Origin: Ruminococcus sp. AF41-9
Lineage (GTDB): Bacteria > Bacillota > Clostridia > Lachnospirales > Lachnospiraceae
Length of the DNA: 63,819 nt
Reading direction: 5' to 3'
NCBI RefSeq assembly: GCF_003477525.1
Contig: NZ_QUDO01000022.1
Location: 1-63,819 of the forward strand
Of this stretch, positions 1 through 63,384 are shown one piece after another; within the stretch, counting starts at the first letter, position 1, and each line of letters begins with the position of its first letter. A program made the translations under genes and the position numbers. Under the pieces are notes generated by a model that had not been told where the DNA came from, did no database searches, and worked only from the letters and a program-made list of their open reading frames with translations.

Positions 1-148
1 AAAAATCTGCTAAACATCGAGAAAGACAGAGCCAAACTCGCCTGCGGCTCAGACAGTGTCTCTGTTTTCTCATAACGCAGATTTTTTCTGGCTAAGAATA
101 TCTAAGAATCCTGCAAATGCACACGAAACAAACTGTTTTTCTGCCCTG
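1..148 (+). repeat. Fold-back element, copy 1 (left part outside window)
   Basis: This is the right part of a long hairpin element seen in full at 3620-3823, 33067-33271 and 63185-63384. It has the shared loop (AAACTCGCC-TGCG-GCTCAGACAGTG) near 35-60, flanked by inner arms that pair imperfectly. Next come the shared CGCAGATT/CTAAGAATATCTAAG stem strand and the fixed CCTGCAAATG motif near 112-121. Its right outer arm resembles, but is not identical to, that of the 33-kb copy. The partner left outer arm lies before base 1. Confidence 0.75.
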
Positions 149-151
149 ATT

Positions 152-180
152 ATAGCAATCTTCGGAAATAATGCATTTAA
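152..180 (-). repeat. Half-copy of the MITE terminal repeat
   Basis: The stretch TATAGCAATC...AATAATGCATTTAA matches the reverse complement of the right terminal repeat of the element at 3362-3530, with a few changes. No matching left end is visible, so this is a solo end or remnant. The 68-nt hairpin repeat begins inside its last bases. Confidence 0.55.
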
Positions 181-3361: not shown

Positions 3362-3530
3362 GTATTATAGCGATCCTCCAAAATAACGCATCTTAATCCA
3401 GTCCATCAGAGGGTGAAATCCTGCGTCAGATATCTTTGCCGTGCGTCAGCACGTCTGCAGATATCTTCCTTGTCTTTCACCCTCTGCTGAACTGTCTTAA
3501 ATGCATTATTTATGAGGATTGCTATAATAC
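3362..3530. mobile_element. MITE-like element, 169 bp
   Basis: The ends are inverted repeats (GTATTATAGCGATCCTC at the left, GAGGATTGCTATAATAC at the right), with about 40 nt of imperfect complementarity. Inside is a second hairpin, CAGAGGGTGAAA pairing with TTTCACCCTCTG, which encloses AGATATC repeats. It has no coding capacity. A shorter derivative lies at 17408-17498 and a half end at 152-180. It lies between the 3' ends of the phosphofructokinase and ABC exporter genes. Confidence 0.75.
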
Positions 3531-3619: not shown

Positions 3620-3823
3620 GTGGAGAAAAAGTAATTGTTCTGGATGCATTTGCAGGATACTTAGAGATTCTTAGTCGGCAAAAAGCTGCGTTATAAAAAA
3701 ATCGACACACTGTCTGAGCCGCAGGCGAGTTTGTGTCGATTTTTTATGGTTTTAGCAGATTTTTGGCGGCTTAGAATCTCTTAGTGTCCGAAACCGCATC
3801 CAGAACAATTACTTTTTCTCCAC
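3620..3823 (-). repeat. Fold-back element, copy 2
   Basis: This 204-bp element has perfect 28-nt outer arms (3620-3647 and 3796-3823). Read on the minus strand it carries the family motifs in order: CGGTTTCGG, a middle stem with CTAAGCCGCC, CTAAAACCA, a private inner arm rich in A and GTCGATT, the loop AAACTCGCCTGCGGCTCAG, the complementary inner arm, ATAACGCAG, CTAAG, and CCTGCAAATG. Orientation is opposite to the other three copies. It may also terminate transcription between the convergent genes, but that is not needed to explain its structure. Confidence 0.8.
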
Positions 3824-3861
3824 GTCCCTTAATGAACAAACTTACGTCCCTTAATGAACAG
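3824..3861. repeat. Short direct repeat beside fold-back copy 2
   Basis: The 17-mer ACGTCCCTTAATGAACA occurs twice in tandem, separated by a few bases (starting near 3822 and 3843). It directly abuts the right end of the fold-back element and the 3' end of the exporter gene. Function unknown; it may be a footprint of insertion or slippage. Confidence 0.5.
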
Positions 3862-17378: not shown

Positions 17379-17407
17379 GTTTCAGAATTGCGCATATTCA
17401 TTGGACT

Positions 17408-17498
17408 TATAGCGATCCTCTAAAATAACGCATCTTAATCCAGTCTTTCACCCTCTGCTGAACTGTCTTAAATGCATTATTTACGAGGATTGCTATAA
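17408..17498. mobile_element. Internally deleted MITE derivative
   Basis: It has the same ends as the 3362-3530 element (TATAGCGATCCTC... and ...GAGGATTGCTATAAT). About 79 bp between two short GTC direct repeats is missing, which removes the left half of the inner hairpin. About 91 bp remain. Confidence 0.75.
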
Positions 17499-17570
17499 TC
17501 TGAAAAAATATAAAAGGTACATAGAAAATAAAGAAAAACATATAAAGTAAAAAAACGGTATAAAAAGTAA

Positions 17571-33066: not shown

Positions 33067-33271
33067 GCCCGGAAAAATAGTTCCTTTTGTGTGCGGTTTC
33101 GGGGCCTAAGATATTCTAAGCCACCAGAAATCTGCTAAAACCATGAGAAAACAGAGCCAAACTCGCCTTCGGCTCAGACAGTGTCTCTGTTTTCTCATAA
33201 CGCAGATTTCTGCTGACTAAGAATATCTAAGACCCCTGCAAATGCACACAAAAGGAACTATTTTTCCGGGC
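33067..33271 (+). repeat. Fold-back element, copy 3
   Basis: This 205-bp element has perfect 28-nt outer arms (33067-33094 with 33244-33271). The middle stem pairs CCTAAGATATTCTAAG with CTAAGAATATCTAAG. The inner arms ATGAGAAAACAGAG and CTCTGTTTTCTCAT are a perfect 14-bp stem. The loop is AAACTCGCCTTCGGCTCAG. The fixed motifs CGGTTTCGG and CCTGCAAATG face each other at the outer junction. It sits just after a terminator. Confidence 0.85.
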
Positions 33272-52420: not shown

Positions 52421-52423
52421 ATT

Positions 52424-52491
52424 TTAACCAAATCAAGTAAGTCCCCTGCTTCAATTGCGAAAAGCAATAAGCAGTGGGTGGGGACTTGCTT
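52424..52491 (+). repeat. 68-nt hairpin repeat, copy B
   Basis: Identical to 177-244. Here it lies inside the long leader of the LytTR operon, immediately before another hairpin (AGGCG...CGCCT, 52495-52520) and the two-hairpin module. Confidence 0.8.
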
Positions 52492-63184: not shown

Positions 63185-63384
63185 GCAAGCTCCAGCCATT
63201 CTCTTCGGCTCCGGTTTCGGGCCTTAAGAAAAGCTAAGCTCGGAAAATCAGCTAAAACCATTCGCAAATAACTCAAACTCGCTGCGCTCAGACAGTGAGT
63301 GATTTGCGAATAACGCTGATTTCCCGAGGCTAAGTTTTTCTAAAGACCCTGCAAATGTCGCCGAAGAGAATGGCTGGAGCTTGC
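63185..63384 (+). repeat. Fold-back element, copy 4
   Basis: This 200-bp element has perfect 25-nt outer arms (63185-63209 with 63360-63384). The middle stem pairs AGAAAAGCTAAGCTCGG with CCGAGGCTAAGTTTTTCT, and the inner stem pairs ATTCGCAAAT with ATTTGCGAAT. The loop is AAACTCGCTGCGCTCAGACAG. The fixed motifs CGGTTTCGG and CCTGCAAATG are at the outer junction as in the other copies, while arms and middle stem bases differ in paired fashion. Confidence 0.85.

Follow-up and report, generated by a model that had tools for sequence, protein, structure and literature searches.

Several described systems resemble parts of the element reported here. Bacterial MITEs are small, non-coding and dispersed, with inverted repeats and a target duplication; MITEAba12, as presented in the available text of PMC6382973, is 113 bp long with 16-bp repeats and shares its ends with ISAba12. 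REP and BIME sequences are interspersed palindromes, and REP are characterized in the relevant part of PMC3733652 by stems of 5-13 bp, GTAG or CGTC tags and frequent G-T pairs. Other stem-loop families are intergenic and form one long stem-loop, ERIC being cited in PMC2267715 as an E. coli family with a single long stem-loop, in a survey which covered Clostridium perfringens and C. tetani. Elements of the IS66 family produce 8-bp duplications and have ends starting GTAAGCG, according to the section of PMC11946415 that deals with them. With respect to the origin of hairpins, quasipalindrome template switching has been studied in E. coli (PMC7202029). PMC8794818 proposes that template switching gives rise to hairpins and preserves them, attributing perfect stems and simultaneous pair changes in RNA genes, mostly with short stems, to arm-to-arm copying during DNA replication.

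The window, which is the whole stretch of 63,819 nucleotides of Ruminococcus sp. AF41-9 DNA that was analyzed, holds a fold-back element at four places, complete at three and cut at the fourth (Table 1). A sequence-only reading had reported these four places with a common layout and with perfect outer arms of 28, 28 and 25 bp within each copy, and all of this was confirmed. The loop pattern AAACTCGC-N(3-7)-GCTCAGACAG gave four matches in the window versus none in 100 dinucleotide shuffles. In copy 3 the repeat search at 33067 returned a 38-nt, 89% arm pair, of which the outer 28 positions pair completely. Inward of these arms come the asymmetric islands CGGTTTCGG/CCTGCAAATG and then a middle stem that carries CTAAG on each side; the asymmetric pair GCTAAAA/TAACGC follows, and an inner stem leads to the loop AAACTCGC-NNNNN-GCTCAGACAG. 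The islands were thus present as claimed; the second pair had been given as AAAACC facing ATAACG, and an alignment of 21 copies showed that GCTAAAA facing TAACGC is the better form. Conservation extended slightly outside the arms, with GGG(T)GAC on the 5' side and TG plus a loosely conserved TTGG on the 3' side. Over all subfamilies the unit was approximately 200-300 bp long with outer arms of 25-70 bp, and one core, consisting of the loop AAACTCGC..GCTCAGACAG and the asymmetric islands, lies within arms that are specific to each copy and pair almost perfectly.

Table 1. Copies of the fold-back element in the window and parts of copy 3.
Feature	Position	Strand	Observation
Copy 1	1..148	+	cut by window start, 5' half absent; loop 34-56; model R1 88.6 bits at 1-127
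Copy 2, whole	3620..3823	-	28-bp outer arms (3620-3647/3796-3823, 28 nt, 100% paired); model R1 147.8 bits, model-building sequence
Copy 3, whole	33067..33271	+	28-bp perfect outer arms; model R1 160.2 bits, model-building sequence
Copy 3, 5' outer arm	33067..33094	+	28/28 pairs with 33244-33271
Copy 3, 5' island CGGTTTCGG	33094..33102	+	GTTTCG nearly invariant among 21 copies
Copy 3, second 5' island GCTAAAACC	33134..33142	+	read in sequence and 21-copy alignment
Copy 3, terminal loop AAACTCGCCTTCGGCTCAGACAG	33159..33181	+	loop pattern match; common to several phyla
Copy 3, facing 3' island ATAACGC	33197..33203	+	read in sequence and 21-copy alignment
Copy 3, facing 3' island CCTGCAAATG	33235..33244	+	TGCAA invariant among 21 copies
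Copy 3, 3' outer arm	33244..33271	+	28/28 pairs with 33067-33094
Copy 4, whole	63185..63384	+	25-bp perfect arms (63185-63209/63360-63384, 25 nt, 100% paired), different sequence; model R1 150.5 bits, model-building sequence

A covariance model (R1) of the kind proposed by the earlier reading was built from 21 Lachnospiraceae copies, three of them from the window. The scores of the three whole window copies (147.8-160.2 bits) are therefore high by construction; the cut copy, which was outside the training set, was recovered as well (Table 1). Folded as RNA, copy 3 had a predicted energy of -113.1 kcal/mol compared with -45.22 (sd 4.29) in 200 shuffles (z -15.82).

Other repeats were observed near these copies. 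Window positions 149-180, 3365-3528 and 17407-17499 carry a second repeat, whose ends resemble TTATAGCRATCCTC...GAGGATTGCTATAA and which also looks like a fold-back; dozens of matches to its copy beside window copy 2 were listed in three Blautia-genus genomes. A 69-nt stretch was 100% identical at 176-244 and 52423-52491, 52 kb apart, and is related to sequences that recur often among the matches listed from Blautia-genus genomes. At the 5' edge of copy 2 there is a direct repeat, ACGTCCCTTAATGAAC, at 3822-3837 and 3844-3859, and TTCATTAAGGGACG also precedes another copy (ortholog group E).

The element shares with MITEAba12 its small size, lack of coding sequence, inverted repeats, target duplication (in Hungatella) and dispersal, and differs from MITEAba12 as described in PMC6382973 in that its 25-70 bp of paired arm are of copy-specific sequence and its structured core is common to hairpins in other phyla. 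Like REP and BIME it is an interspersed palindrome, found in Ralstonia as inverted pairs among the matches listed. Unlike REP as outlined in PMC3733652, it is 200-300 bp long, its G-T pairs are rare and it is defined without a GTAG or CGTC tag; units of this size with 25-70-bp outer arms fall outside the REP dimensions of a 20-40 bp palindrome with 5-13 bp stems. It has in common with ERIC and other families in PMC2267715 an intergenic, long single stem-loop. The paired arm changes are of the kind discussed in PMC8794818, here in the 25-70-bp arms of an interspersed element instead of RNA genes. At gathering scores Rfam 15 returned only tRNAs for the window and 18 loci, and no description of the element was found in open-licence literature, the papers listed for its loop letters being unrelated, so the earlier statement that no named family has this design held within these sources. 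The best weak Rfam match, MIR7504, was rejected at 38.2 bits versus the 83 needed, and for the skipping-rope and ssNA-helix motifs the open-licence literature gave nothing on the element. In Hungatella the element works like a MITE, and the REP, Rfam and terminator features tested were absent. We regard it as an interspersed palindrome whose core is common to several phyla and whose two arms evolve together. On balance we consider it probable that these copies are a patchy family of non-autonomous MITE-like fold-backs, in which the arms are kept paired by template switching and the core by selection.

Between Hungatella copies the arms were 62.7% identical and the core 91.7% (136 comparisons). 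Covariation, for which the earlier reading had suggested a test, was strong: among 17 copies both sides changed in 58 of 70 arm pairs, with 254 cells changed on both sides versus 23 on one, a paired-drift result that is inflated by the relatedness of the copies. Standard pairs made up 96.0% of 1141 cells in these copies, compared with 73.1% (sd 0.8) when partners were shuffled and at most 46.0% when the arms were slid. The double changes included more transversions (137 cells) than transitions (115 cells), and the non-Watson-Crick cells were G-T in 25 cases, A-C in 22 and other in 24, some of these being alignment faults. When 18 Hungatella copies were each read in their own register with arms ended by score, there were 1183 Watson-Crick, 14 G-T, 6 A-C and 5 other pairs, a count which leaves out one of 19 rows, the mis-registered second copy of L184. 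An earlier arm count gave 19 G-T versus 13 A-C, having missed the island in eight rows, with most Hungatella rows at zero. In 26 distinct copies from the Blautia genus and the window, taken at a fixed 28 pairs, 713 of 728 pairs (97.9%) were Watson-Crick, with 4 G-T, 7 A-C and 4 other; this count covers copies with the island motifs and a full arm, L357 (10/28) and L353 (5/28) having been dropped. An excess of G-U over other mismatches was consequently absent from the fixed-length arms and mild (14 to 6) in the score-extended arms.

In Blautia the element looks older and is in decay. The gene upstream of window copy 3 is likewise followed by a counterpart of the copy in G055, in G040 and in G001 (Blautia wexlerae), and the G001 counterpart has lost its apical half. 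Eleven ortholog groups were aligned, with group K doubtful on the 5' side. Window copy 3 and its G055 counterpart differed at 8 of 28 pairs, all on both sides and four by transversion. Group C contained a paired transversion (G-C versus T-A) and group I a single paired transition. Group P showed a block of paired changes together with a one-base indel that is itself paired, and one of its positions reads A-T in G055, A-C in G001 and G-C in the collapsed G040 copy. Five single-sided differences were found in groups A, E, N and O, and end trimming hid further single-sided mismatches which are visible in the fixed-length count. These ortholog counts are to be read with pairs within a group not independent, group P shifted by its indel and group R lacking one member. 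Such a mixture of single-sided and paired states is what would be predicted by mutation followed by arm-to-arm copying. Replacement of a whole copy by another could mimic part of these data, above all for the window copy. Apical deletions occurred at orthologous Blautia sites: two seemingly empty sites contained a shorter palindrome made from the outer arms only, and two more comparisons (L430, L419) resemble internal losses. No insertion of the Blautia/window subfamily was seen, the apparent empty sites being these two deletions and six that were unreadable.

Gene context was determined from crude gene calls for 174 of 232 distinct copies, leaving out copies near locus ends and six viral loci. 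Between genes of the same direction, 57 copies were sense and 19 antisense (p 1.5e-5); 30 copies lay between convergent genes, 22 between divergent genes and 46 inside predicted ORFs. The preference for sense placement is a hint of action in transcripts. It would be in keeping with a structured RNA, or an element of RNA processing or stability, in which pairing is kept by selection through compensatory changes, as would the excellent predicted fold of copy 3, the conserved and asymmetric islands and loop, and the strong covariation. In RNA helices under selection G-U is usually tolerated far better than A-C, and in the fixed-length arms G-T was no more common than A-C. Further points against an RNA are the surplus of transversions among double changes, near-perfect pairing up to approximately 70 bp, the copies between convergent and divergent genes and the lack of an Rfam family at gathering score. 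We regard this explanation as unlikely. The sequence-only reading had offered templated copying and selection for shape as alternatives; the missing G-T excess, the transversions and the paired changes in orthologs favor templated correction of DNA arms, and selection on RNA shape is less favored.

Insertion was observed in Hungatella. The genome of Hungatella effluvii (G002) has 21 loops, and a congeneric genome (G017) has 4 exact loops and 10 model R1 matches. Flanking sequences of 19 G002 copies were searched for in G017, and the comparison was carried to single bases at 12 sites. The extra segment in G002 contains both arms and ends in GTTACAGTTCA or GTAACAGTTCA and the complement, with variants. 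Target duplications adjoining the GTTACAGTTCA-like ends were readable by hand as 8 bp at 8 of the 12 sites, two of them perfect (GAAAATCA, CTTTATTC), four with one mismatch and two with two; alternative readings are 10 bp at L190 and 5 bp at L180 and L181, and approximately 20 bases are unexplained at L187. No duplication was readable at the other four sites, L182, L192, L194 and L196. At L194 the G017 site seems to retain the right arm and end and is therefore probably a deletion rather than an empty site. In Hungatella, then, the unit inserted with its arms and created a target duplication for which 8 bp is the best reading, and these duplications beside shared ends indicate that the whole fold-back moves like a MITE there. 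Comparison of loci with and without the element, as had been proposed for defining its exact ends, gave these readings in Hungatella; the sites of the Blautia/window subfamily gave deletions or no reading.

These duplications and the common GTTACAGTTCA ends would also be expected of an ordinary MITE whose long terminal repeats came from several old, already different sources and underwent no ongoing correction, and two arm subfamilies are indeed visible among the Hungatella copies. However, both arms of orthologous copies change after insertion, and the source elements themselves would need the same paired drift. Unpaired arm positions were also rarer than diverged duplication positions: 8 of 64 positions are mismatched in the Hungatella duplications, versus 25 of 1208 arm positions unpaired (Fisher p 1.4e-4), where the latter is a low estimate and the test leans, since score extension penalizes mismatches. 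An uncorrected MITE of this kind appears improbable to us.

As to what may move the Hungatella form, a 565-codon frame in the Blautia-genus genome G055 matches the IS66 transposase family and lies between inverted GTTACTGTTCAA ends, similar to those of the Hungatella form and flanked on both sides by TTTTGGTT, an 8-bp duplication. The IS66 likeness consists of the 8-bp duplications and of ends beginning GTAA in part of the Hungatella copies; the ends cited in PMC11946415 start GTAAGCG. In the Hungatella genomes searched, neither a clear autonomous partner for the fold-back nor an IS66 element with matching ends was found, and an IS66-family fragment in G002 (L446) had two imperfect end matches 1.15 kb apart which look like chance. 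An IS66-type transposase is the leading candidate mobilizer for the Hungatella form only, as a lead and not a proof. G002 also contains a second repeat of 151 bp (for example L393 1501-1651) with ends GTAACAGTTCAGACGGC, whose terminal bases are common to the Hungatella fold-back.

The shared motifs recur well beyond the window, which the sequence-only reading had no means of seeing. With one genome per species, the loop was found in at least 120 stretches from Bacillota, Bacteroidota, Proteobacteria and Nitrospirota, a scan which gives range and says nothing of prevalence. The matches listed included Blautia wexlerae, Hungatella effluvii, Clostridium and Selenomonas for Bacillota, Parabacteroides and Sphingobacterium for Bacteroidota, and Ralstonia, Noviherbaspirillum and Polaromonas for Proteobacteria; Nitrospirae were also present. 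Among 126 distinct copies from the listed loci, 100 had at least six contiguous Watson-Crick pairs beside the loop, compared with 1.4% when halves of different copies were paired; the other 26 had shorter apical stems and some may be chance. CTAAA occurred within 60 nt 5' of the loop in 44 of the 126 copies and TAACG within 60 nt 3' in 25, versus 12 and 5 on the swapped sides, and both together in 20 copies versus a shuffle mean of 0.54 and maximum of 3. The motif AARTAASCAAA was noted 5' of the loop in 14 of the 126 copies and never 3' (loci L008, L023, L029, L030, L048, L050, L070, L080, L102, L117, L120 and L123), and in several of these a TCAAG farther on could pair with the hairpin loop CTTGA in a pseudoknot-like manner.

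Prevalence was surveyed in Clostridia and Lachnospiraceae only. The exact loop was present in 8 of 291 Clostridia genomes drawn evenly, and R1 matched 9 of 60 Lachnospiraceae genomes, both including the source genome as a known positive. The source genome itself gave 32 R1 matches, a figure in which one copy or more counts twice, once per strand. Over 46 loci R1 gave 53 matches up to E 0.01; those in Lachnospiraceae were strong, some coming from genomes that supplied building sequences, and those in other phyla were short and weak and rested on the loop. In 16 genomes picked for holding a locus there were 1 to 71 loops each among the matches listed, mostly on both strands, and the reversed control pattern gave none among the matches listed in the same genomes. 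The element is thus multi-copy but patchy. Plasmid records gave no match to the element queries, and the Ralstonia query matched two records in part. Five unannotated faecal 'Bacteriophage sp.' contigs of uncertain phage nature matched in the phage records, the best at 90.3% over 65% of the query and at a contig end. Of the viral-collection contigs, L002 (7362-8879) and L006 carry Betaproteobacterial-type copies, two inverted copies in L002 flanking two small ORFs; the other four matches were without stems in the rows listed. In the Ralstonia genome G007 (C3), loops among the matches listed stand as inverted pairs approximately 212-220 bp apart, like REP dimers (745335/745553 and 1295151/1295371).

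Integron attC sites, to which the element may bear some likeness, carry R'/R'' boxes and are recombined by the integron integrase. A single-stranded DNA site that works in folded form, like attC or REP, and is cut and joined by a specific nuclease or recombinase that reads bulged islands, would accommodate the fixed unpaired islands inside variable stems, the presence of copies on both strands among the matches listed and the inverted Ralstonia pairs. The 8-bp duplication in Hungatella points instead to a staggered double-strand cut, and the translations of ORFs between closely spaced copies, as read, included no recognizable transposase, nuclease or recombinase; we think this explanation very unlikely. 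Intrinsic terminators of unrelated origin, suggested by the mostly intergenic hairpins and by one terminator-like site (0.6 expected) on the minus strand in 601 bases around copy 3, deserve hardly any credence, being contradicted by the loop and islands shared by copies from many genomes, by the lack of a T run directly after the outer stem of copy 3 and by divergent placements.

For the MITE-like fold-back with arms corrected by template switching, the most likely course is the following. During replication or repair a strand would fold and the polymerase would copy one arm from the other, as in quasipalindrome template switching, such that a mutation in one arm would be either erased or copied across and the letters would drift with complementarity kept. 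Template switching would explain why the arms pair perfectly and yet drift, and also the transversions and the paired indels. It should also erase asymmetric islands, and selection on the core is therefore assumed, most likely through a protein which recognizes the folded form; such recognition, for which the islands may be the sites, would serve mobility or an effect on transcripts. More tentatively, and as a possibility we would not yet favor, the hairpins could form a cross-phylum mobile class in which the core is read folded by one protein family, the ends differ per lineage and the arms record template-switch correction.

If such a class is real, arm complementarity would be rewritten faster than it decays while the sequence drifts. 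Instability is to be expected of long perfect palindromes in bacterial genomes, yet those described here persist at orthologous sites and are still paired despite changed letters. Mismatched, corrected and collapsed states are all visible in related genomes, and each copy would serve as a natural test of how frequently arm-to-arm copying occurs in bacterial DNA synthesis. That one loop occurs in several phyla, with the scanned stretches giving no Rfam family at curated scores, is a hint of an undescribed recognition system.
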